Shown piece after piece: positions 3,395 to 64,000 of a DNA stretch of 64,000 nucleotides (positions within the stretch are counted from its first letter, which is position 1; every line of letters starts with the position of its first letter). The position numbers and the translations under genes are program-made. The stretch is from Kappaphycus alvarezii (taxonomy: Eukaryota > Rhodophyta > Florideophyceae > Gigartinales > Solieriaceae). The notes under the pieces were generated by a model. It saw only the letters and a list, made by a program, of their open reading frames with translations. It did not search any database and had not been told where the DNA came from. The stretch is taken from assembly GCA_002205965.3 (NCBI GenBank), contig NADL03000455.1, forward strand, positions 1-64,000, given 5' to 3'.

Positions 3395-5057
3395 CGGGTT
3401 CATCTTGGCGGTATAGAATCGGCGCCTGGCAGCCAGTTTATTGAGAAGAGTATGCTTCTCAAAGATATCACAAATCAGGGACCTCATGACCTTGGCGGTA
3501 TTGGCATGCTGGACTTGTTCGAGATGGGTATCAGATAGAGTCAGTCCGATGGTAGCCCTAGCCTTGCAATCCGCCTTCTTCCATGCGGAGTATGTAGTGA
3601 CGAGGTTTCCGGAGGGTCTTCAGTGAGGTGGTCGTCAACTTCCCTCAGTGAGAGCAATAGTTGAATTCTCGACTTCCAGATGTGGAAGTTGTCATCACGG
3701 AGCTTCTCGAGACTGTCGAGTCGAAGTCCTGAAGAGTCCATGGAGAAAAGCAATGGAGTGAGAGAAAACTGTGCTTATAGATAGAGGGAGCACAGGAGGT
3801 TGAGAACAGATTTACTTATTTCTATGATTAATGTGCCTGTTGCGATCGTGTCTCGTCTGGAAGAGGCGATTGCAGTAAACACACGGAGTGATGGCTGATC
3901 TCCTCTCGACTCTGTTTCGACACTTCTTTCCACCTCTGTGCTGCTCGAGCTGCTTTGGACCCGAGACTTTGAGTTGGCAAAGGTCACAAATCAGGAGGGA
4001 AGACTTTGGCTTGGAGATAGGAGGAACAGGAGTTGGAGGTAGGGAACGAATGGAGCCGGAGAGAGAGGTTCGACTGAAAGAGGAGTCGGAACCCTTGGAG
4101 ATGAAGGAACAAATGCAACAGAAGGGGCAGCAGGAGAGAGTGGAGATTGGATGGGAGCAGCTGGAGCTGGAGACGTCGAAGCCGGAGAAGGGGAGATGAG
4201 AGAACCACTTGAATGGGTCGAGGGTCGGAGGTTTCGGATCCTTCTTCTTCTTCGGCTCTCCTCCCTTTGATTTCTTGCTTTGCTTCGATACTCTGCTCGA
4301 TGAGGCAGGAAGCGGCTTGGAGCGAAGGTTCGTTGGCTTTGACTTTTCGTAGAGGTTTCGGAGCTAGAGATTTCGGATGAGCAGGCAGTTTCGGACGGTT
4401 GGCAAGGAAAGGATATGGTTTAAGAAGGAGTCCTTCTTCTCCGGAGGAGGAGGTTGGAGACGACTTCGACTTGAACAACCTCTGGAGTAGTCGCGGTGGA
4501 AGGAATGTCGTTACCTTCGCCGTCCGACTCAATAGCGGAATCGTCGATGAAACGGCACTTCGGACGGGCAGGAGGCTTGGCGGAGGATTCGTCGAAGGTA
4601 AGGCGGCGAATCACGGGATCGTTCGGAGGGATGTCGATGCCGCGACGAAATACGGAGAGTGAGATGACCACTGGTAACAGAAATTTGTGAGGTTAGGCGG
4701 AGGATAAGGCAATGCTTCGGGATGGTATGAGAAAAGCACAGGATGGTTTGGACTTACTGTTGCGACTAGGCACGGGCCGTGAGACAAACCGGGGTATGTA
4801 ACACGGGGGCGAGACAAGAAGCAACGAGAGCAAGACGGGCCGCAAGATGTACTGGAATCTGTGGTGTGGGGATGAAGAGCGGCGACGGGCTGCAAAACCA
4901 ACAGGAGTAGGTAGAGCAGGGACGACGGACGCTAAGCAGGCCACAAGACAGGAGGTCAGTAGATAGTGCAGAGACGTCAAGAGAGTGCGGTCAAACCTTA
5001 AGGCCTTTTTTTTTTTTTTTTTTTTTTAGCCTCCGCGAAGTTGTTCATTCTGTCCCT
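3395..5057 (-). pseudogene. B-1 inverted segment: leader, upstream zinc-finger ORF, start of gag
   Basis: On the minus strand this carries, in order, the B leader, a basic and proline-rich upstream ORF ending in two zinc fingers, and the N-terminal part of gag (RLDSLEKLRDDNFHIWKS). The inner edges match the flanking gag exactly: one copy ends where the sense copy resumes at about 5058, so this is a simple inversion. The leader shows intron-like signals (GTAAGT at 4757-4752, CTAAC, then a pyrimidine-rich CCAG at 4671). A run of 22 T lies at 5006-5027. The segment is broken. Confidence 0.8.
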
Positions 5058-9840: not shown

Positions 9841-9855
9841 ACTGGGCCCATAACC
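9841..9855 (-). promoter_or_regulatory. A-1 primer binding site
   Basis: On the minus strand GGTTATGGGCCCAGT directly follows the 5' LTR. It is complementary to the anticodon arm (CUGGGCCCAUAACC) of eukaryotic initiator tRNA-Met, the half-tRNA priming mode known from Drosophila copia. Confidence 0.8.
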
Positions 9856-11374: not shown

Positions 11375-14300
11375 TGCAGTACGTTAACCGCGTGACACAG
11401 TTGGCAGCGACCCTGAAATCCATGGATGTGACTATCGATGACAAAGAGATAGCCATGGCTGTGCTTAACGGATTGCCACCCCGGTTTGACAATCTCATCG
11501 TTGCCTTGGACGCGCTCGGCAATGAGGACAGGGTGTTTACTTTGGAATTTGTGAAGAGCCGGTTGTTGCAGGAAGAGGAGCTTGCTCAAATGAGGGAGTC
11601 AAAAGGGACAAAATCTAATGCTGCGCTCATCTCCAATGCCGGTCCGAATGACTACGGAGGTAATGCTAGACAGCTGCACTGTACGAACTGAGGTCATTCC
11701 GGTCACACCGCCGACAGATGCTGGGTCAAAGATTTGAACGGTAGGCGCCCGGAAGCTCCAAGGGGCTATCGTGCATCCGGTTTTCGTAGTAGCAGAGCAT
11801 CTAATATTCATCGAAACGAGAAAAATCGCCCGAGAAGAGAGCAGCAGGCGTTCGTAGGTGCAAATGTATTTGATTCGACTGATTCTCATCCTTCATCAGA
11901 TAGTGGGGACAGCGTTGATGATGAAATTGTTTGCTTCATGTCACGAATTAAACAGGCCGAGATTTCGGCTGGAACTTCCTCCTGGTACGCAGATTCCGCA
12001 TGTACTTCCCATATGACTTACGATAGGAGTGTTTTCACGAATTATACCGAATTTTCTGCAGCCTCAGTCGAAATGGGAACTAAAGCCCGGGCTAAGATTG
12101 CTGGGCGAGGTGACGTGGAGCTCACATTACTAGTGGATGGCTCTCGAAAGCGGTGCATTCTGCGAGATGTTGTCCACGTTCCTAGTTTCGAATACTCTCT
12201 CATCTCTGTAGGCAAAGCGGACATAGAAGGGATCAAAACTGTATTTGAGAACAAAGCTTTGCAGATGACTAAGAATGGGAGAGTTGTAGCAACTGGAAAA
12301 ATGCTGTGCAATAGCCTTCTTTATGCTATCGACATAGTCCAGAAGATACCCAATGATACCTTGTACTCTGCGAAAGTCACCACACTCTCGACATGGCACG
12401 AGAGAATGGCTCACGTAAGCAAGCAGGGCATTGCATCTATGGTAAGGAACAATTTTGTGGACGGCGTACAGATCAGTGGCTCGAATACATCCGAAATATG
12501 CACCTCATGCGTTCATGTAAAGGCTCATCGTTCTGCAGTGCCGAAGGAACGCACGACTGGTAGAGCTGAAGCGATGTTAGACCTTGTTCACAGTGACGTG
12601 TGTGGAACTATGGAGGTTTCTTCTGTTGGAGGGGCACGCTACTTTGTGACCTTCACGGACGATCACTCTTCCCGGGTTACCGTCTACATGATGCAGCGAA
12701 AGTCAGAGGTCTTTGATAAATACAAACTGTTCCAAGCTCGTAGCGAAGCCCATACTGGGCGTCGCATTGGCATTCTTCGTTCAGATCGAGGGCAGAATAT
12801 ATGTCCACTGCATTCAAGGACTACTTTGCCGAGCGCGGCACAAAACATGAGCTTAGTGCAGTGGAGTCACCTGAACAGAATGGTGTATCAGAGCGCCTGA
12901 ACCGAACACTGATGGATCTGGCTCGGTCCATGCTACATGCAAAGAGTTTGCCAAAACAGTTCTGAGCCGAAGCTCTGGCGACTGCTGTATACATCCGAAA
13001 CAGAGTTACAACTCGGGCACTTCCAAGCCACACGACCCCGCATCATATATGGTACGGTCGCAAGCCCAATTTGTCGCACCTTCGTACGTTCGGAAGCAAA
13101 TGTTGGTACACCGTCCCGGCAAGTCAATTGAGTAAGCTTGACAACCGAGCACGGGAAGCAATTATGCTTGGATATGCGGAACCCAGCAAAGCTTACAAAC
13201 TGTGGGATCCTGAATTACACAAGGTAGTTGTTTCGAGAGATGTCAGATTCAGTGAGAGCGAAACCTGCCAGTCTGAAATAAATGAGAAAGAATCAGATGA
13301 GTATCTCGCAATTAGCTCCGATGAGAATCTTGTAAGTCTCGGCGTTGAACATGATGCTCATGTTCGGCTTCCTACACCGGACACAGCCGAAAGAACTGCG
13401 GCTTCGAGACAAGATATTCAGGGACAAGGGAATGACCAGGCTAATGTTAGAAGCGACCCAACGGTCGCCGAAAACGTAGGTACAGATAACGAAATCCCTG
13501 AGCCCCCTGAGGTGTCTGTAGCTCCTCGGAGATCTGAAAGGATTCGAAGAGTTCCGAATGCTTGGTGGAGATCAAACATATTCTTCACACATAATGACAC
13601 GGCTCTCGTTACAAATGTTGTCAACATCTCGTACCGACACGCGACGACAGGACCGGACGCAGACTTTTGGAAGTCCGCCATCGAGTCCGAGCGAGACTCG
13701 ATCCTTTGGAACAAGAAATGGTAGTTAGTCCCACGTTTGGAGGCCTCAAACATTCTGACTCCAAAATGGGTGTTTGCAATAAAAGATGCCCAGGACTCCA
13801 ACGGAGGCTTTACCCGAAAATCGAAAGCGCGTCTTGTCGCTCGTGGTTTCCAACAGGTGAAAGGGGTAGATTATAATGAGACGTACGCCCCTGTCGTGAA
13901 GCTCACGTCAATTCGGGTGCTTTTGGCACTTGTCGCACATCAGGACCTGGAGCTGCATCAAATGGACGTTAAGACGGCATTTCTGAACGGTGATGTGGAG
14001 GAGGACGTGTACATGGAACAGCCTGATGGATTTAAGGACGCCTCGAAACCAAATCATGTCTGCAAATTTCTGAAGGCGTTGTATGGTTTGAAACAGGCAC
14101 ATAGACGGTGGCACCAGAAAATTGATGATTTTCATGTTGATGGGCTCAAGTTCAAAAGTAGCACTAATGATCCCTGTGTTTATGGTAAAATTTGACCCGA
14201 CCCCCGACTCAATCATGATTCTCCTGTAGAAAACGTTAACCACTGAGGCACATGCGCTGGCTCTCTTGTGCCACTGAGCGGACAACAACATATATAGATC

Positions 14301-15512
14301 AACACCCCCCCTCGCTCAGAGGCACTACCACAAGGTGTTTGTCGAGGGGTTAAGGGCTTACACAGAGCATTACAGGAACGCTCATAACAAATATCCAACT
14401 CAGTGCACCCAGCGGGGTTCGAACCCTCGACCACAGCGGCAACGTCAACTGGGCCCATAACCTATAGAAAACGTTAACCACTGAGCCACATGCGCTGGCT
14501 CTCTTGTGCCACTGAGCGGACAACAACATATATAGATCAACATATCCTTCTGTATGTTGATGACTTGCTGCTTGCAGAAAACAACATGGAGGCGATTGCA
14601 TGGATGAAGGAGGATCTGAACCGCCGTTTTGAAATGAAAGATTTGGGCGAAGCGAGAATGGTTGTTGGGCTCGAAATTTCTCGCCGGAGATCCAAACGAT
14701 CCTTGTGTTTATCCCAGCCACGGTTTGTAATCAGCGTTTTAGAGCGATTTGAAATGCAGAATTGTAGACCTGTTCCAACTCCTATGAATCTAAACACTGA
14801 CGAGTTGAACGTGGATCGGTCGGTTGATACGGGTAGTGATGCTCGGACAGATGCTCCATACAGGAGCGCCATTGGAGCTCTCATGTATTTGTCTGTTGGA
14901 ACACGACCTGATATTTCTTATGCGGTTGGTAAACTTGCACGTTTCTGCGAAGAACCAAGAGAGAAGCATTGGTTAGCAGTAAAAAGAGTGTTAAAGTATT
15001 TCGCTGGACCCAAGATTTAGGTCTTTTGTTCCGAGGGAATGCTGATCTGGGCTTGTCTGCATACTGTGGCTCGGATTTGGCCGGAGATTTGTCCGATCGC
15101 AAATCGACGAGTGGTTTCGTGTTTCGCGTGGCTGGAAGTGGGGTAAGTTGGTGCTCGCGAAAGCAAACGGTTGTCGCAGCTTCGTCATGTGAGGCCGAAT
15201 ACATTTCGTTAACTGCAGCAAGTAAAGAAGCAATATGGCTGAGACGTGTCGTTCGGGACATCCTTGAAACCTGGACATCGCTGGGCATGAAAGCACTTGG
15301 AATTGATCATGCTACTACAATATACAGCGATAACCAGGGGGCTATGGGGCTCGCTCGAAACGAGAGCACCAACAGACGCAACAAGCACATTGATATTGCA
15401 TACCACTTTGTAAGAGATGCAGTTGTGCATAAAGAGGTGGACTTGGTGTACGTGCCAACAACTGAAAATGTTGCTGACGCTTTGACAGAACCAATAGGGC
15501 AAGTTCAGATGA
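11375..15512 (+). mobile_element. E-1: truncated Ty1/copia element related to A
   Basis: Only internal sequence remains. It holds the gag C-terminal part (MQYVNRVTQLAATLKSMDV), a zinc-knuckle region near 11690-11730, the protease core YADSACTSHMTYD, pre-integrase STWHERMAHVS, integrase (VHSDVCGTMEVSSVGGARY), RT (AFLNGDVEEDVYMEQP, YVDDLLLAENN) and RNase H (SDRKSTSGFVFR, CEAEYISL). The relation to A is clear in gag and RT, but the sequence differs enough to be its own family. The 5' end is cut by A-1 and the 3' end by an A2 LTR piece. TRIM-1 sits inside its RT. It is broken in several places and is among the older elements here. Confidence 0.87.
14225..14542 (-). mobile_element. TRIM-1: miniature LTR element with tRNA-like boxes
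   Basis: This is a 318-bp non-coding element. On the minus strand it has a 5' LTR at 14463-14542 (80 bp), the primer site GGTTATGGGCCCAG (14462-14449), a short interior, a polypurine tract (GAGGGGGG) and a 3' LTR at 14225-14304 (80 bp). The two LTRs differ at 2 positions by eye. The flanks TCTCC (14220-14224) and TATCC (14543-14547) look like a 5-bp target duplication with one change, inside the E-1 RT. An A box (TGGCTCAGTGG) lies in each LTR and a B box (GGTTCGAACCC) in the interior, 63 bp apart. It must be mobilised by another element's proteins. Confidence 0.85.
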
Positions 15513-53633: not shown

Positions 53634-56600
53634 CCCCCCCTCGATTACATGACCTAAGCATCGTGCAGCTCTCCGAGGCCTAGAGATTTTGTGCATTTTA
53701 TGAATAGAATGCGACCAAGAGGCTTGGTGAGTATATCTGCTGGCATATCTGTAGAAGGTACGTGAAACAGTGACACAATCTTCGAGTCACAGCATCTCGG
53801 ACAAAATGATATGATATGTCAATGTGCTTATTTCGCCTGTTCACTCCTTCGTTACCCGCAAACGCTATGTACCAGCATTATCACACCCGATTGTAACTGT
53901 GCTGTCTTTCGACTTTCCCAATGCGTCTGAAAGAAGGCACCTGAGCCAAGCTGCCTCCTTGCAAGCCTCACACAGTGCAATATACTCCGTTTCGCATGTG
54001 GATTTCGCAACGACCGTTTGTCTCCTAGATGACCAACTAATAGCTCCCCACACAGTTTTAACACATATCCACTGGTGGACTTTCTCGAGTCCAAGCAACC
54101 ACCCCAGTCTGCATCGCTGAAGCCCTCTAGAGTTTGCACTGGGAGATTTTCATCTAGAACTACACCTAGTGAGTGAGTTCCTCTGATATATCTCAGAACT
54201 CTTTTGGCTGCTTGCCAGTGGTCCTCGCGAGGGTTCTCACAGTGTTGGGACAGTTTCCCACCACATATGCAAGATCTGGACGTGACCCTACATAAGAAAC
54301 ATTAAGCAGCCAATGATCTGTCGATATGGTACATCGCAATACGGGCTAGTTGACATCTCAGGGTGTAATCCTTGTTCCATCGGAGTCCTCACGAGATTGC
54401 AACTGGCCATACCAAAACGTTTCAAAATGGACTTGGCATACTCTGTCTGCGAGATATAGATCCGTCTAGGGACCCTTTTTCTACTTATTTCAAGCCCAAT
54501 GCACTTTTTGGCCTCGCCTAAATCTTTCATCTCAAATCTCTTGTTCAGTTCACCTTTCATCCAGGTCACGGCTTTCAGGTCACTTCCCGCAAGAAGCAAG
54601 TCATCCACATATAGGGCAATCAGCATAACGCCTTTTTCTGATATGTTTGTATATAGACAAGCGTCACTTCTCGTAGTCTTGACGCCAATCGTGTGAATAA
54701 GGAAATCGTCAATCTTTTGTGCCATTGTCGACTCGCTTGCTTATGACCATAGATAGCCTTGAGAAGTTTGCAAACATGATTGGGCCTGGAAGAGTCAACG
54801 ATACCTTCAGGCTGCTCCATATAAATATCCTCTTCTAAGTCACCGTTCAGAAAGGCCGTGACCACGTCCATTTGATGAAGCTCTAAATCGAAGTGGGCTA
54901 CAATCGCCAACAACAATCGAATCGTTGTAAATTTGATCACCGGCGCAAAAGTCTCTGATTAATCAATCCCCTCAATTTGTTGAAAGCCCCGCACAACCAG
55001 GCGACCTTTTCCCTTTTGAATCAACGTGCCGTTATCGTCCGGGATGTCCTTCACAGTAAATACCCAGCGAGAAGTTAGAATATTGGCACCTTCCGATCGT
55101 GCACTAGTGCCCAGGTTTTGTTTTTGCGTTGGGACTCTAGCTCCTTATCAATCGCTTTCTGCCAGAACTGTGGTTGTGGTCCACCCATCGCCTCTTTAAA
55201 GGAGTTCGGTATGTTGATGTCGCCACAGGAAGGTGTGAGTAAGCTGGTTCCAACCAGGCCTGTCCACCACTGTCGGGTGGCGTCCGTGAACGAGTGGAGC
55301 GGCGAGGTTCCATATCACCGGGACCAGCATCTTGCTCACCACTCACTTCTTCTGGTTGCAAAGTCTCATTAGTGTTGAGTCGGGCTCAATACCTTGACTT
55401 TGAAAGTTCTCAACCTCCATCGGTGACCCTGCTTCAATGCCATGTTCATTATCACCATCAGATAATTCAGCCTCAATTTCGTCAGTATCGGTCGCCTCCA
55501 CTGGGTCAACGTCGACGTCATTATCATCGGAAAAATGTTCATCGTAAGAGCAAGCCCCTGGTCTCGACTCATCGAACTGCACATCCCTGGAAATAACAAT
55601 GCGATGTAAATTGTCATCCCAAATTTTGTAGGCCTTAGTTCCCGGCGGATACCCAACAAACATTCCCGTTGTTGCGCGGTCGTCAAGTTTACGCACCTCA
55701 TTACCAGGCACCTTGTACCAGCATTGACATCCAAACACACGTAGGTGAGATACATCGGGCTTTTTCTTCATCCATAGGTGAAATGGAGTAACGAGACCAC
55801 CCAAAGCTCTTGTCGTGACACGATTGCGAACGTAAACTGCGTTATCAAGAGCTTCAGCCCAGAAAGCTTTCGGAACCTTCATGTGGGACAGCATAGACCT
55901 GACGAGATCAATCAGGGTACGATTGAGCCGTTCTGCCACACCATTCTGTTCAGGTGTGTATGCAGCGGTCGTTTGATGAACAGTTCCTTGTGACGATAGA
56001 AAGGATTGGAACTCTGAAGAAAGATACTCTCCTCCACGATCAGATCGAAGCACTTTCACGCGTTGACCAGTGTGTGTGAAGGCATATTGGGCAAACTTCT
56101 GATAAAAATGGAACGTTTCATCTTTACTCTTCATCGGATAGACAACACTCCAGTTTGAGTGGTCATCGATAAAAGTGACAAAGTATCTAGCACCACCTAC
56201 TGACTGTACTTGGAGTGGGCCGCAGACGTCCGAATGGACCAAGTCTAGCAAATGTTTGGCCCTGCCTCCAGAGCGCTGTTTAGGAATCACAGCACGAGTT
56301 GCTTTTCCTAACACACACGCATCACATGTCACAGATTCACAGTCAGAAGATGAGCTAGCGTCTCTTGTTGTATCTGAAGAGGAGATATGAAGTCCACTTA
56401 CCACGTTCTTACGAGCCATGGACAATATTCCTTGAGTGTGAACGTGGGCCAATCTTTCATGCCATGTCTTCAAAGAGGCTTTGTGCGCCGAATGAACCTC
56501 GTTACATGTGTCAAGCACATACAGCTCTCCTCGACTTGTGGCAGTAGCCACGATGCAGTCACTCCTCTTCACAGTGCACTTGTGACGAACGAACTCAACG

Positions 56601-57756
56601 TCAAATCCATTATCGACCATCTTACGTACAGAAATTAGGGAAAAAGCAAAGCTTGGAACGTGCAGCACATTGGTGAGCTTGCATGACTTTTGAACTCCGT
56701 TCACTACAAGCCTAATGAGGATGGTTCCGACTCCAGCTACTACTGCACACGCTTTTGTTCCCATTTCTACGAGGCTGTTTGAGACCTCCCTGTAGTCGGA
56801 GAATAGTCTCCTGTCAAATGTCATGTGCGCGGAGCATCCAGAGTCGATAAGCCAAGTGTTGCCGTTATGTTGATACCAGAGTTATCTACCTTGTTCATCA
56901 GACATATGTACTCGACTTCATTAATTTCCAGATCTTCTTTATCTTGAGCAATCATCGCATTAGGCTTCTGTGACTGTCTACGGAGGAACCGGTCAGGTGG
57001 CGGTGGTCGCCTTCCGTTGATGTCCTTTCCCCAGCAGCGGGCAGCGTAGTGTCCATTGTGACCACAGTTGGTGCGTGTCAAAGTCGAAACACGCCTTGCC
57101 TCAGGGATGTGCCCAATAAGAGCAGAACTTGGCGGATACTGCCTCCTAGTAAGGTTAAGCTTCATCGATGCACGTTGCTCCTCTTGGAGCAGGCGACTTT
57201 TTACATATTCTACTCCGAACGTGTTATCTTCGGATCCAAGAGCGTCAAGCGCTACAATGAGATTTTTAAACCTCTGCGGAAGACCATTGAGAACTTTCAT
57301 AGCCATTTCCTTGTCATCAATGATGACTCCCATTGACTTTAAGCGAGCTGTTAGGTGTCGCACACGTCCTATGTATGGCAAAACTTTCTCATTGTCTAGC
57401 ATGGTGACCGTGTAGAAGTCTCTTCGGGCCGCCAGCTTATTTAGTAATGTGTGGCGCTCAAAAAACTTCCAAGATGGAGTCCCACATTTCTTTGGCTGTG
57501 ACAGCATCTCTCACATGATCCAGGTGATCATCGGACAGCGACAGGCCGATGATGGCCCGGGCCTTTCGATCTCCTTGCTTCCATGCCTTGTAAGTGGAAG
57601 ATTGTTCATCTTCAGGAACGGTGCCATCAGTAATATACTGTTCCACATCGCGAAGGCCAACAGGAGCTGAATCTTCTGTTTCCACACGTAGAAATTGGTA
57701 TCCGTGAGCTTTTCGATCTTCATCGATCCTCCTCCTTGATCTTCTCCGCTACTCAT
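53634..57756 (-). pseudogene. A2-2 gag-pol remnant
   Basis: From 57756 leftwards come gag MSSGEDQGGGSMKIEKL, UBN2 words, a zinc-knuckle region, protease to integrase in the 493-codon frame at 55343-56824 (LKTWHERLAHVH, LVHSDVCGPLQVQSVGG, LRSDRGGEYLSSEF), RT (YVDDLLLAGSD) and RNase H (FSDADWGGCLDSRKSTSGY). Same order as A2-1. Several breaks. Confidence 0.88.
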
Positions 57757-57766
57757 TGCAATATTC

Positions 57767-57841
57767 TAGAGGTGCTAATGTTCTGTTCGAAGATCCCAAG
57801 CCGGGGACCGATAGTCCCTTGTAGTGGCAAGCCCACCTCTA
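57767..57841 (-). other. A2-2 copy of the 75-nt pre-gag fold
   Basis: Fourth copy in the window. Identical length and closing stem to the other three. Confidence 0.6.
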
Positions 57842-57916
57842 TAAGAACACAGCACACGAAACTCTAGACTAAAGCAAAGGCCAAAGACGTCGCTTCAAAC
57901 AAACAAATGGATCTCT

Positions 57917-58272
57917 TTAAGTTCTCTGGGACAAAACTACTTTCAGGTGTTCCTTTCCGTTCTCGTGACGCTTGAGAACCTCGTGGGAATCGAACACTCT
58001 ATCACAAGCAGTACACCTAGGGGTCTTTTTCTTGTTTTTCTCTCTAGTCCTATGACCCTTAGAATTGATGTGATCGTAGAATGTCTGTGCGCTATTGCAG
58101 CTAATATCACAGAGCTTGCAGTACCTCTTGTTCCTCGGCGGAACTCTTCGTTTAGCCTTTAGTTCCTTCTTGGCAACTCGATCGGCGAGGGCTTTAGCTT
58201 TCTTTGCCGAGAGGCGTTGAACTTTCTTTATTGGCTTATCCAGAGGTACTGACTTACGAGGGATCCTATACC
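57917..58272 (-). pseudogene. A2-2 upstream ORF (ORF0), zinc-finger part
   Basis: This is the clearest view of the finger region. A basic linker (KKVQRLSAKKAKALADRVAK) is followed by finger 1 (YCKLCDISCNS...YDHINSKGH) and finger 2 (CTACDRVF...KRHENGKEH), each CX2CX12HX5H, 13 residues apart, with the stop shortly after. The spacing matches U1/matrin-type fingers. The N-terminal part of the ORF is replaced by TRIM-2. Confidence 0.75.
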
Positions 58273-58585
58273 TGTTGATATATATATGTTGTGGTCCGCT
58301 CAGATGCACAAGAGCCAGCGCATGTGGCTCAGTGGTTAACATTTTTCAACAGGTTATGGGCCCAGTTGACGTTGCCGCTGTGGTCGCGGGTTCGAGTCCC
58401 GCAAGGTGCACTGAGTTGGATATTTGTTCCAGACATTACTGTAATGGTCTGTGTAAGCCCTGAACCCCTCGACAAGCATCTTGTAGTAGTGCCTCTGAGC
58501 GAGGGGGGTGTTGATATATATGTTGTTGGTCCGCTCAGATGCACAAGAGCCAGCGCATGTGGCTCAGTGGTTAACATTTTCAACA
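58273..58585 (+). mobile_element. TRIM-2: miniature LTR element with tRNA-like boxes
   Basis: 313 bp: LTR 58273-58351 (79 bp), primer site GGTTATGGGCCCAG (58352-58365), interior, polypurine tract GAGGGGGG (58501-58508) and LTR 58509-58585 (77 bp). The LTRs start TGTTGATATAT and end TTCAACA. The A box TGGCTCAGTGG (58325-58335, repeated at 58560-58570) sits in the LTR. The B box GGTTCGAGTCC (58389-58399) sits in the interior, within a perfect T-arm (GCGGG/CCCGC). The flanks ATACC and GAAAT do not match, so one side is rearranged. It has no coding capacity. Confidence 0.85.
58386..58402 (+). promoter_or_regulatory. T-arm-like hairpin with Pol III B box in TRIM-2
   Basis: GCGGG and CCCGC pair around a seven-base TTCGAGT loop. 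The loop and stem contain the B-box consensus GGTTCGANNCC. The A box lies 64 bp upstream, a workable spacing for Pol III. No complete cloverleaf can be drawn: the acceptor pairing is only partial. Confidence 0.65.
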
Positions 58586-59048
58586 GAAATCTCCCGCCAA
58601 GGTAAATATCGTAACCTCTTGACCTCTCTCGATAATTCATAATTTATCGAATTATCTCGAGAGCACATATCACAAACGCCACCATGTAATTTCCCGCCGG
58701 AAGTACTGTACACCTCACGAGAGGTAACAGAAACTGCTTCCACCATTCCCACGAGACAGTGACAGCACTGTGCAGTGCACTGTAATATTCACGTACGCAC
58801 ATCTTGGAATACTACTGTACAGTCATGAGTACAGTAGAATGTTACTGTACTGGATGTAGTAACGTACAGTAGAATATGTTCCCACTGTAATGGTACAGTA
58901 ATGTAAGCAATATCAACAGTGCCCATACATCCAGTTCCAGTGCACACCAGACATTACAGTAGGTTTCCAACACAGTGCGCATCCAGCATACTGTATCAAA
59001 GCGGTCCTACTTTATGTCCCGTTCCACCATTACAGTATGCTTCCAACA
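58586..59048 (-). repeat. D-1 3' LTR
   Basis: It starts TGTTGGAAGCATACTG at 59048 on the minus strand, next to the GAGGGGGGG tract. It is rich in TACTGTAC/GTACAGTA words (58780-58900). The far end is uncertain: it abuts TRIM-2 at 58586, and no second D LTR is present for comparison. Confidence 0.65.
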
Positions 59049-59059
59049 CCCCCCCTCTG

Positions 59060-62000
59060 TCACTGGCTTAGTTGTCTTAGCCCTACGCGAGAAATGAGCC
59101 ATTCTAGCTTCACTCTACCGAGGGCTTTCGTCAGGAGATCTGCGACCATTGTTTCAGTGGGACAGTATTCCAATTTTATTTCCGCCTCCTCAATGGCTTG
59201 TCTACAGAAGTGGTAACGGACGTCGATGTGTTTCGTTCGCCGGTTACTGCTCCCGTTCATGGCCAAGTGCATCGAACCTTGGTTATCTGCGTATATCACC
59301 ATTGGATTTTTGCAAAGCACAAGTCCAACTTTAAGATTCGCCACCAATCGCCGTAGCCATACCGCTTCCTTTACACCAGTACTGAGGCTTACGTATTCCG
59401 CTTCAGTTGAGGACAAAGTCACAACTTCCTGCAAACGGGAGCACCATGACACCGCCGCTCCAGCCATCATAAAGACATAACCACTTGTCGACTTCCGTGT
59501 AGTGACATCACCTGCATAATCCGAGTCCACGTATCCAATTGGATCCAAAGATTCGTTTCCATCGAAACACAATTTGTGGCCGGAAGTGGAGATCAGATAT
59601 CTCAAAAGTCGTTTCACACATTGCCAATGCAAATTGGTAGGTGCCTCAACAAACTTAGCTAGGCGGCAAACAGCGAATGCAATATCTGGACGTGTACCGA
59701 CCATCAAGTACATTAAACAACCAATTGCCTCACGGTACGGGATCTCAGACGCCACTTCTCCCTCCACACTCAAGTTGATACCAGTCTCCATTGGCGTGTG
59801 TGATCCTTTCGCTGAGCCAAGGCCAAACCGGACTGCTACAGCGCGGGCGTACTTTTCCTGCGACAAGTAAAGCTTCCCCTCAGTGGAATTTCGATAGATC
59901 TCAAAGCCGAGGCAATGGCGAGCTTCGTTCAGGTCTTTCATACGGAAAGACGAGCTCAGGGCTTTCTTTACTTCATCAAGCCGCGCAACATTGCTGCAAG
60001 CAATCAACAAGTCATCAACATACAACGCAATGACTAAAACCGCTCCGTCAATGCAGCTGCTGAACAGGCAATCATCAGACGGATTCCGCTGTAAGCCCAA
60101 ATGCTCTGTCAGGAATTTGTCGATTTTTCTGTGCCAGCAGCGGCTCGCCTGTTTGAGACCGTAGATCGCTTTCCCGAGCTTACAAACGTAATTTTCCTTA
60201 TTCTTGATCCGGAATCCTTCCGGCTGCTCCATGTACACACACTCTTCGAGATCTCCATTTAGAAAGGCCGTCACGACATCCATCTGATGCAACAATAAGT
60301 TCAAAGATGTAACCATAGCCAGCAGAATACGCACTGAAGTAAACTTCACTACCGGGGCATAGGTCTCATTGTAGTCAATTCCTTCAACTTGGGAGAAACC
60401 ACGAGCAACAAGCCTAGCTTTGTGGCGTTTCTTAGTTGTACCATCTGGCTGAGGATCGTCTTTTGTCACATAAACCCACTTGCAGGAAACTACATTTTTA
60501 TCCGCGGGACGAGGAACCAACTCCCAGGTGTTGTTCTCTAGGAGAGAGCGATACTCTTTGTCCATAGCCTCTTGCCATTTATCGCTTTCACCGTTGGACA
60601 GGGCCTCTCTGTATGACTGAGGATCATGTGGACAGGAGGCCGACAATAAAGCACTTGGAGTAGCCTTCCACCATTCTCCAGGCTTACGACGGTGCCTCGA
60701 AGATTTCCGAGTTGCGGATACCGGTTCCAATTCAGGCGAATTCGTAGCCGAAACAGATTCCCCTGCCACTCCAGTAGAGGGTGCATTATTCAGATTCGAA
60801 TTATCAACTTCCTCAACAGCAGAAGATTCTTCAGACACTTGGTGAGAAACTTCGTCCTCGGTGTCTGAGGGATCGCCGGGCACATCTTTGAGCACCGTAG
60901 ATGCATTGAGTTCAGTTTGACTGATCTCATCAAACTTCACATCCCGGGAAATCACCACCTTCTTGGAGGAGACGTCCCATAATTTGTAGCCCTGTGAGCC
61001 CTTTGCGTATCCAATCATGATCGCCTCTCGAGCTCTAGGAGATAGTTTTCCTTCCCGATTGGCTTTTGGAATTGTGAACCAGCACTTACTCCAAAGACGC
61101 GCATATGCCCGAGATGCGGCTTTCGCTTAGTCCATAGCTCAAACGGCGTAACATTTCGCCCTAGTGCCCTGGTAGTTACCCGATTTCGGACATACACTGC
61201 CACTGCAACTGCTTCTGCCCAGAACGCATTCGGAAGATTCTTACAGTGAAGCATAGATCGAACCAAATCGTTTATAGTTCTATTCAAACGTTCTGCGATC
61301 CCATTCTGATGTGGGTTATACGGAACTGTCGGCATTGATTCTATACCGTGTTCTGCCAGGTACCGTTTGAAAACATTATTAATATACTCGCCACCGTTGT
61401 CGAAATGAATCCTTTTCAACTTCCTTCCTGTATGACGTTCTGCGTAAGCATGAAACCGTTTGAAGCAATCGAACGTTTCGGACTTTTCTTTCATTGTGTA
61501 GACGGCACAAAACCGTGAGTGGTCATCAATGAAAGATACAAAATACCGTGACCCACCTAGGGACGGCGTCTGCACAGGACCATGGACGTCCGAGTGAACC
61601 AGATCGAGAACCAGCGAGGCCCTGGGTCCAGGCTGCTTAGGAATCGTGGCACGGTGACTTTTTCCATAAATGCAAGATTCGCAAACATTTACGGGTTGTT
61701 TGGGATCTATTTCGATGCCAAGAACTGTTCCAGTTCGAGCCATGCTTTTGATTCCTTCCGAGTTTACATGGGCAAGTCTTGCGTGCCAAAGCGAGAGGTC
61801 TTGACGGCGAGAGCGATTCCTCGTTTATCAGTCGGAACCTTCGTAGTCGTATTTAATTCATAAAGACCATTGCGACGTGTTCCTTCGGCAATAACTCGCA
61901 CGTTTTCGAGTATACGACATGCACCATTCTCAAACTCAATCTTCCGTCCGCCATTCTCTATTGCCGACACTGAGATGAGATTGAACTTTAACCCCGGGAC

Positions 62001-63053
62001 ATACATGACATTTGATAACCTGCATTTAACGGAAACGCCTTCAACAAGCAGTTGGACTGTGATCATTCCTTTACCGTGGGCCTTGACAGTAGAGTTATTG
62101 CCCATAGAAACTTCAAATGGGTCCACTGACTCCAAGGTTTCAAACAGTTCCCGGCTCGAAGTCATGTGAGCAGTAGCCCCAGAATCAATGTGCCAGGTGA
62201 TAGCAGCCGTGGCACCGGATGCGTTCTCTCCTTGAGCCATCAAACACACGAAATCATCGGCGTCTGAGTTACTGCTTTCGGGCGATGTTGAAGAGGCACT
62301 ACCAACGAGACCCGCAGACTTTTCCGAAGCATGGGCTTTTGACCTATTTCGTTCATCTCGCTGCTTCTTCCAGCAGAATTGTTCCTCGTGGCCTCGCTTT
62401 TTGCAGTAGGTGCAGTGTCGCTGTGATTTATTTCTTGCCACCAAAGCATTTGAGCTGTCCGACCTTGAGGCTCCGCCAGTTTTCTCCGCTAGACGCTGTT
62501 CTTCTTGAAGAAGGCGGCTTTTCACAAAATCTAGCGAGAGTGATTTTTCATCTGTCACCGTGTCGATGGCGACTATCAGGTGCTCAAACTTTTCGGGCAA
62601 TCCACACAGCACGCTCATAGCAATATCCTCATCCGCTACTGTGACCTCCATGTTTCGCAGATCCGACGCAAGCTGGCGGACACGATTGATATACGCCAAA
62701 GCTCGCTCTCCTTCCATCATAACTGCAGAATAGAATCTACGACGAGCTCTGAGCTTATTGAGTAGTGTACGGCGCTGAAAGACATTCATCAACGCTTTCC
62801 ACATATCAGAAGCAGACTTCAGTTCACGAACGTGATCCAAGTGCTCATCGCTCAGCGTCAGACCGATGACAGCCCTCGCTTTGGCATCTCGTTTCTGCCA
62901 TTCGCGGTACCCTTCATCGTTTTCAGGTGGAGCCGCTTCAGTGATCACATTGTCAAGCTCTCGAAATGCCAGGAGATATTCGATTTTCTGCTTCCAGGTA
63001 TGGAAGTTAGAGTCACTAAGTTTTTCAATTTTAAAGACGCCTGAGCCGTCCAT
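59060..63053 (-). pseudogene. D-1 gag-pol
   Basis: Gag starts MDGSGVFKIEKLSDSNF (UBN2-type, 63053 to about 62480). Then come the knuckle CTYCKKRGHEEQFCW, protease core WHIDSGATAHMTS, pre-integrase and CESCIYG, integrase (LVHSDVHGPVQTPSLGGSRYF, IHFDNGGEYINNVF, NGIAERLNRTI), and a 652-codon frame (59060-61018) with RT ([29 protein letters not shown]) and RNase H (YVDSDYAGDVTTRKSTSGY, SSTEAEYVSL, ADLLTKALG). About two breaks separate the frames. Confidence 0.88.
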
Positions 63054-63702
63054 CTTTCCCTTAACAGGATTAAGAGATAAAGAAAGTACAAGGCAAAACA
63101 GCAACCCAAAGTTGCAAATACCAGACCTCAATGGTCTCAGAAGAAGTGTGTGTACAGAGCTTGAGTGCTCAAACTGCAGGAAGTCGGACTTCCGGGCCCC
63201 TGGTTAGACTCTCCAGGTGAGACACGGTTTCTGCGATTGACTAACCTTCCCTTGCGTGAATCAAGGTCCAGCGCAGCGCACCAACACTCTATGTGAAGGA
63301 TCACTAGGAGTCGGACTCCCGGCCCCCGGTTAGACTCTCCGGGTAAGACGCGGTTTCAGCTGCCTCTCCCACCTGTGCGAGTACCACAGGCAGGTGCAAA
63401 TGATCCCTACGAGACGTCCCAAGGAGGCTACTAACACCGGCGAGTGTTCACCCTTAAAGCCAAGCCAGTCTCTTGCAGGAAATTGCGCGGCCAGTTGGAT
63501 GCTCCCAGTCACTGTGCAGTACGCTACGACACCCTGTCCAGCAAACAAGTTCGCTTACTACCTGGTTTCACAACCGTCACCGTTATCTGCCCAAGAGGAC
63601 CGGTGGGAGCAGCACGTCAACAAGTTCGCCGTTAGTTCAAGTCGCCAAGCTCACGTCCACGGAGTTACCCGCTTCAACCGTTCGTCGCACAGTTTGCACC
63701 TA
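63054..63702 (-). other. D-1 leader with repeated palindromic motif
   Basis: No zinc-finger ORF is seen. A block of about 55 bp occurs twice (about 63179-63235 and 63307-63362), each with a palindrome (GGAAGTCGGACTTCC at 63179-63193, GGAGTCGGACTCC at 63307-63319). The block is also found in the C-1 leader. A pyrimidine-rich AG just upstream of gag (about 63060-63110) may be a 3' splice site. Confidence 0.6.
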
Positions 63703-64000
63703 GTGGAATTCTATGGTACGATGGCACTCCACACCCGTTACTCAAGGCACTGTTCCCAAAAGGGTTCAGCCGTAGTGCAGCGATTCACCGATAGCCAAGA
63801 CCACCTGCTAATCCCTGTGGAATTCTATGGTACGATGGCACTCCACACTCGTTACTCAAAGGCACTGTTCCCAAAAGGGTTCAGCCGTAGTGCAGCGATT
63901 CACCGATAGCCAAGACCACCCGCTATTCCCAGTGGAATTCTATGGTACGATGGCACTCCACACCCGTTACTCAAGGCACTGTTCCCAAAAGGGTTCAGCC
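63703..64000. repeat. Tandem repeat, about 114-bp unit
   Basis: Units begin GTGGAATTCTATGGTACG at 63703, 63817 and 63932, giving 2.6 copies before the window ends. The copies differ at only a few positions. It lies upstream of the D-1 leader block and may be part of that leader or a separate minisatellite. Confidence 0.85.

Follow-up and report, generated by a model that had tools for sequence, protein, structure and literature searches.

Short non-coding LTR elements of Kappaphycus alvarezii with a putative tRNA-type Pol III promoter divided between LTR and interior

How is a short non-coding LTR element (TRIM) transcribed if the two boxes of a tRNA-type Pol III promoter lie on either side of the border between its LTR and its primer-binding site (PBS)? 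This question is raised by the element at positions 58273-58585 of the window, a stretch of 64,000 nucleotides from the red alga Kappaphycus alvarezii. Judging from sequence comparisons within the same genome, we consider it moderately likely that this element belongs to a group of non-autonomous TRIMs which are mobilised by Copia elements and whose type-2 (tRNA-type) Pol III promoter is split across the LTR/PBS border.

The window element and its tRNA-like boxes

The TRIM at 58273-58585 is 313 bp long with LTRs of 79 and 77 bp, which were read directly off the sequence; all features are listed in Table 1. The PBS follows immediately 3' of the 5' LTR and the polypurine tract (PPT) lies immediately 5' of the 3' LTR. 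There is an A box in each LTR and a single B box, and the distance from the start of the A box to the start of the B box is 64 nt. The first-pass annotation of this stretch had described a TRIM with LTRs of 77-79 bp, a primer site and a polypurine tract, with an A box in the LTR and a B box in an interior T arm 64 nt away, all of which was borne out by direct reading. It had also named another TRIM with the same layout at a spacing of 63, and this copy was confirmed on the minus strand at 14225-14542. We found no target duplication around the TRIM at 58273-58585 (left flank ATACC, right flank GAAAT), as its right flank is a broken Copia LTR: positions 58583-59048 are 100% identical, in reverse orientation, to the first 466 bp of an 829-bp Copia LTR.

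Table 1. Coordinates of the TRIM at 58273-58585, its neighbour and the second TRIM of the window
Feature	Positions	Strand	Remarks
5' LTR	58273-58351	+	79 bp, TGTTGA...TCAACA ends
TATATATAT run, possible TATA element	58279-58287	+	
tRNA-like stretch across LTR end, PBS and interior	58318-58410	+	Rfam tRNA 23.1 bits, gathering score 29
A box TGGCTCAGTGG, 5' LTR	58325-58335	+	
T5 run close to 5' LTR end, possible Pol III terminator	58342-58346	+	
PBS GGTTATGGGCCCAG	58352-58365	+	14/14 complementary to anticodon arm of the genome's tRNA-iMet
Interior	58352-58508	+	157 bp
T-arm hairpin GCGGG-TTCGAGT-CCCGC	58386-58402	+	stem GCGGG/CCCGC perfect
B box GGTTCGAGTCC	58389-58399	+	interior, beyond PBS, within T arm
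PPT GAGGGGGG	58501-58508	+	
3' LTR	58509-58585	+	77 bp
A box TGGCTCAGTGG, 3' LTR	58560-58570	+	
T4 run, 3' LTR, possible transcript end	58577-58580	+	
Broken Copia LTR adjoining the TRIM	58583-59048	-	
Other family A copy, boxes split likewise, 63 nt apart	14225-14542	-	near-match flanks GGATA/GGAGA

The box motifs in the two TRIMs of the window are not there by chance. Allowing up to three mismatches, the 18-mer containing the A box matched the window four times, always within the two TRIMs, and the 17-nt T arm matched twice, both times in a TRIM; 0.04 matches were expected in either case. In 28 of 61 5' LTRs of the same family (family A below) a further A-box-like sequence, CCGCTCAGTGG, precedes the genuine A box; in the copy at 14225-14542, for example, it lies in the U3.

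The stretch spanning both boxes resembles a tRNA to a limited degree. When the Rfam tRNA model was run on 16 loci with E values up to 10, it matched four of the eight loci of family A and none of the eight of a sister family (family B). A functional tRNA was rejected, with 23.1 bits in the window copy and at best 24.1 bits among the 16 loci compared to a cut-off of 29. ARAGORN called no tRNA in the window and made calls in 2 of 38 TRIM loci (L119 and L107). The predicted fold of 58318-58410 was not clearly more stable than that of shuffled sequences (z = -1.31; 17 of 200 shuffles were at least as stable), and T-arm variants with a broken stem pair are present among the copies. We also looked for a source tRNA or SINE by searching for exact TGGCTCAGTGG followed by GGTTCGA at tRNA-like spacing, a search that covers the A-box form of family A only. 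The five matches were all TRIM-like, two resembling family A and three family B. It is plausible that the boxes of these TRIMs come from a captured tRNA gene or SINE.

Families A and B in the genome

We searched 336 Mb of genome sequence in 884 contigs. The light-harvesting protein family had 22 matches and the fungal Zn cluster (Zn_clus) none, the control of the latter search being empty too, so that a photosynthetic host other than a fungus is probable. For family A, to which both TRIMs of the window belong, a 21-nt interior pattern gave 211 matches (up to three mismatches; 7 with the reversed pattern as a control) and the LTR tail gave 399 (up to three mismatches; control 0). The fetched loci contained 143 interior matches: 89 had TRIM LTRs on both sides, 38 had the 3' LTR only, 9 had the 5' LTR only and 7 had neither. 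Outside a 27-unit array, 15 of the 62 complete units were flanked by an exact 5-bp target duplication, compared to a mean of 0.2 and a maximum of 2 in 2000 trials with shuffled flanks. These 15 duplications represent 13 distinct sequences. One is common to L032 and L057 and another to L084 and L092, and each pair may be copies of one insertion. Runs of at least four Ts were found in 162 of 194 LTR tails of the family A type, and TATATAT-type runs are common in this family.

The array itself (locus L013, G000:C23:712884-719331) consists of 27 LTR-interior-LTR units with a period of about 235 bp, and exact TGGCTCAGTGG together with GGTTCGA was seen in 20 of them. TRIM copies were also seen at steps of about 11.8, 11.4 and 6.7 kb on contigs C615, C40 and C175 of the same assembly (G000), as if they lay within larger tandem repeats.

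Family B was reached by a search for both boxes at tRNA-like spacing. Its order is an 84-bp LTR with the A box TGGCTTAGTGG, then the primer site TGGTAGCATCG and, directly 3' of it, a T arm with the B box GGTTCGAGCCC. The genome contains 224 such LTR/primer-site junctions (up to three mismatches; control 0). The A box was found in all 16 fetched copies and the B box in 11, and six of the 16 (L115, L116, L118, L120, L123 and L124) showed an exact 5-bp duplication. The A-to-B distance is 43 nt (in L124) compared to 62-65 nt in 14 copies of family A. A distance of 43 nt is close to the spacing in tRNA genes. TATATA occurs in one of the 16 LTRs, namely in the hybrid LTR of L119, where a family A U3 is joined to a family B LTR end. 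The window element has the anatomy of a TRIM (short and non-coding, with two LTRs, a PBS and a PPT), and short target duplications of the integrase type are found in both families. Families A and B differ in U3, interior, spacing and primer site, and the split of the boxes between LTR (A box) and interior (B box) is common to both.

In order to contrast the two families we compared 210 pairs of copies (14 of 15 from family A and 15 of 16 from family B). The ungapped identity was 97.5% for the 11 nt before the A box, 90% for the A box and 86% for the B box; global alignment gave 59% for U3, 59% for the remainder of the LTR and 52% for the interior. As the families are related and recombining, the shared boxes are not independent inventions and may partly reflect exchange. 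Another observation concerns L017, where at about 4700-5030 a family B LTR is followed by a family A interior and a family A LTR with AATCC on both sides. It was noticed by eye and one such match among 38 is weak; it is possible that it represents an inter-family cDNA chimera that integrated.

For the conservation within family A we aligned 101 of 116 copies, that is, those left after the removal of near-duplicates and with the array excluded. The exact A box was present in 48 of 61 5' LTRs and in 58 of 85 3' LTRs; of the 98 interiors, 73 contained GGTTCGA. The A box showed 0.031 changes per site in the 5' LTRs and 0.042 in the 3' LTRs, which is lower than in each of the 62 other 11-column LTR windows examined. 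The lowest of these had 0.0445 and their median was 0.073; any window that reached into the 7 nt preceding the A box was kept out of this comparison. In the interior 2 of 80 7-column windows were as low as the B-box core GGTTCGA. Across the 61 copies with a 5' LTR, we counted 1.36 parsimony steps per column for the A box, 4.76 for U3, 2.69 for the whole B box and 3.31 for the remainder of the interior. Among 198 windows ranked by parsimony the A box came 17th and the whole 11-nt B box 90th, and the 15 lowest windows listed all overlap the stretch used as a search pattern. Since the PBS and 58366-58384 served as search patterns, their low variation carries no meaning. The degenerate B-box positions 58396-58397 are variable, with the commonest base reaching 74 and 76%. 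Thus in family A the A box is outstanding compared to the rest of the LTR, the B-box core is moderately so and the whole B box is ordinary. The first-pass annotation had proposed many copies with both boxes conserved as a test of its idea, and the counts of the A box and of GGTTCGA agree with it; the whole B box does not. Changes on internal and terminal branches did not separate the boxes from the background (p = 0.53 for the A box and 0.19 for the B box).

Primer sites and contact with Copia

All 14 bases of the family A PBS can pair with the anticodon arm in tRNA-iMet segments from the same genome. The tRNA-iMet search pattern had 11 matches in the genome, nine of them tRNA-iMet-like (eight identical and one a base shorter), each match being a 46-base segment and not a whole gene. 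The primer site of family B can pair with the 3' terminus of this tRNA-iMet, including the CCA, where the discriminator base and the CCA were supplied from general knowledge. Like family A, Drosophila copia primes from the anticodon part of tRNA-iMet. Priming from the anticodon loop is also stated for copia and Ty5 in passages of PMC10886601. In three loci, stretches of the tRNA-iMet sense strand (anticodon arm, or 3' end with CCA) were seen directly before the start of an LTR, like primer footprints (L019 at about 5015-5055, L023 at about 4751 and L003 at about 1491). Matches to the tRNA family also recur every 5.7 kb on contig C802 (G000:C802:305-17476), which suggests a tRNA gene inside a long tandem repeat.

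In the window the family A TRIMs and Copia have the same PBS. Neither box was found near the four PBS sites of the window that lead into Copia frames, and the B box was found at none of 17 PBS junctions with non-TRIM sequence on both sides, these four included. We classified 153 PBS junctions in the fetched loci with redundancy kept. At 35 of them the family A interior had no A box (up to two mismatches) just before the PBS, a class that takes foreign LTRs and decayed TRIM LTRs together. At 15 a family A LTR was followed by a different interior, and at two more (L109 and L110) by a shortened family A interior. Several TRIM copies start precisely with the primer site, joined to the end of a foreign LTR; in the near-identical loci L035, L040 and L080 a TRIM unit separates the LTR end of the Copia family that is found at 9842 and 42270 from that family's PBS and the beginning of its interior. 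Such joints are in keeping with events at the shared primer site, either strand transfer or recombination of LTR-interior circles, and they suggest that nucleic acids of TRIMs and Copia come into contact. The loci L035, L040, L080, L025, L038, L061, L042 and L014 each have a TRIM unit, composed of primer site, interior and LTR, that is preceded by the end of a foreign LTR and followed by a PBS leading into a different interior.

We scanned 38 joints of foreign LTR, TRIM interior and LTR for flanking duplications over up to 700 bases. Foreign LTRs were at least 829 bp long where measured, so the scan is blind to most of their starts. It returned two candidates, both of which were rejected: in L053 the left side of the duplication is a polypurine tract, and in L028 the start lies within the foreign LTR. 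Among 20 open reading frames of the fetched loci Pfam identified parts of Copia in six, a NUDIX domain in one, ubiquitin in one and nothing in 12. A PDB search with one Copia reading frame gave no match.

Transcription of the split elements and comparison with known systems

If the boxes are in use, TFIIIC would bind to the 5' LTR at the A box and to the interior at the B box, and transcription by Pol III would begin about 8-13 nt upstream of the A box, at about 58312-58317. The polymerase would then read past the T run close to the 5' LTR end and on through the PBS and the interior, and would stop at the T run in the 3' LTR. The resulting RNA would carry a direct repeat (R) of about 30 nt at both ends, as reverse transcription needs, and a Copia reverse transcriptase primed by tRNA-iMet together with a Copia integrase would complete the mobilisation. 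As a run of four to five Ts lies between the boxes in the 5' LTR, some Pol III should stop early. Passages of PMC7215508 place terminators in the LTRs of Cassandra too, which implies the same read-through problem. Three independent breakpoints fall at 58312-58317: the LTR tail of L015 begins there, L073 has the tail repeated behind an LTR end, and in the near-duplicate pair L034/L049 a TRIM fragment begins there, joined directly to a reversed Copia LTR that is broken off. They would fit an RNA 5' end at this position, and three are few. The split box signal is probably used for the transcription of the elements, since a sister family has the same split.

As the B box lies outside the LTR, a 3' LTR or a solo LTR holds half a promoter, and complete promoters are found in whole elements and in LTR-interior arrays. 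This leads to a tentative reading, to which we give a little less than an even chance: the split promoter would act as a gate for completeness, so that 3' LTRs, solo LTRs and joints with Copia are silent and only whole elements or arrays are transcribed. The primer site would lie inside the promoter at the place of the anticodon arm of a tRNA, and two families would keep this design with two primer sites on one tRNA-iMet.

There are several other possible explanations for the boxes. They could be left over from a tRNA-like or SINE head that an ancestral TRIM captured, with today's elements either silent or driven by Pol II through the TATA-like run. Such a fossil promoter is in keeping with the weak tRNA-like score, the non-significant branch test and a whole B box that is not unusually conserved in family A; furthermore the window copy has TATATATAT about 25-38 nt upstream of the proposed start, and runs of the TATATAT type are frequent in the family. 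However, of all windows examined in the family A LTR the A box is the best kept, both boxes are better kept between the families than their surroundings, and just one of 16 family B LTRs has TATATA. We regard a fossil promoter as the less likely reading, though not a remote one.

A role of the tRNA-like hairpin in the RNA, that is, in packaging, binding of the reverse transcriptase or placement of the primer and not in transcription, seems improbable to us. The T arm of the window copy closes perfectly and that of family B comes directly after the PBS, but the A box is strongly conserved though it has no obvious part in such a structure, the fold of 58318-58410 is not clearly above shuffles (z = -1.31) and stem-breaking T-arm variants exist. 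We give hardly any credence to a tandem tRNA-derived SINE or satellite misread as an LTR element. Tandem arrays exist, as the 27 units on G000:C23 with their period of about 235 bp illustrate, but the TG...CA ends, the PBS complementary to tRNA-iMet and the PPT speak against it, and it is contradicted by the 5-bp duplications, which flank 15 of the 62 family A units outside the array (expectation 0.2) and 6 of the 16 family B copies.

If the split Pol III promoter is real, LTR elements driven by Pol III need not hold a whole promoter in the LTR, and screens for tRNA-like sequence in LTRs, such as the published Helenus screen, could miss the split class. Solo LTRs would be dead as promoters, unlike the solo LTRs of ordinary LTR elements. 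With two primer sites on one tRNA and the same boxes, families A and B offer a way to ask how TRIMs change their primer.

Among known systems, Drosophila copia and yeast Ty5 are autonomous and transcribed by Pol II. They share priming from the anticodon part of a tRNA with family A and differ from it in their autonomy and, if the boxes are in use, in the polymerase. SINEs integrate by a LINE-type mechanism and have no LTR or PBS, whereas the elements described here have LTRs, a PBS and duplications fixed at 5 bp. According to passages of PMC7215508, Cassandra of plants is likewise a TRIM with a Pol III promoter and terminators in its LTRs and with tandem LTR-interior arrays, but its promoter is of the 5S rRNA type and located in the LTR. 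Ajax of nemerteans, as described in part of PMC10886601, is a TRIM with Pol III-type boxes and 5-bp duplications as well; its boxes are derived from 5S and lie in the LTR. Neither a 5S family nor a hammerhead ribozyme was among the six Rfam matches with E up to 10 in 55001-64000, and the window element thus shows neither the 5S-derived LTR promoter of Cassandra and Ajax nor the hammerhead of retrozymes. From parts of PMC4717578 we learn that the red alga Chondrus crispus has TRIMs and that tandem TRIM arrays are known in plants; the terms 'RNA polymerase III' and 'tRNA' occur zero times in its text, and its passages on TRIMs mention no Pol III boxes.

The first-pass annotation had set the element against Cassandra. 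The difference in promoter type holds, but Helenus is closer and TRIMs with tRNA-type boxes are not new. In the parts of PMC10886601 used here, Helenus (TRIMp3, Kojima 2024) is a TRIM with tRNA-type A and B boxes, a PBS and a PPT. Of its fungal families, most have a primer site for the anticodon loop, resemble Copia in the PBS region and show 5-bp duplications; one zebrafish family is reported to form tandem arrays, and no alga appears in Table 1. Families A and B contain the A (TRGCY..YGG) and B (GGTTC) box motifs of Helenus. The definition of Helenus places the tRNA-derived sequence in the LTRs, where the legend of Figure 2 draws both boxes (PMC10886601), whereas in families A and B the LTR holds the A box alone and the B box follows beyond the PBS, within the interior. 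We found no description of a B box beyond the primer site in the titles and abstract beginnings of the literature searched. Judged by their sequences, families A and B would be a split-promoter variant that works like TRIMp3. TRIMs with tRNA-type boxes are thus already known from Helenus, and the new part is the split across the LTR/primer-site border.
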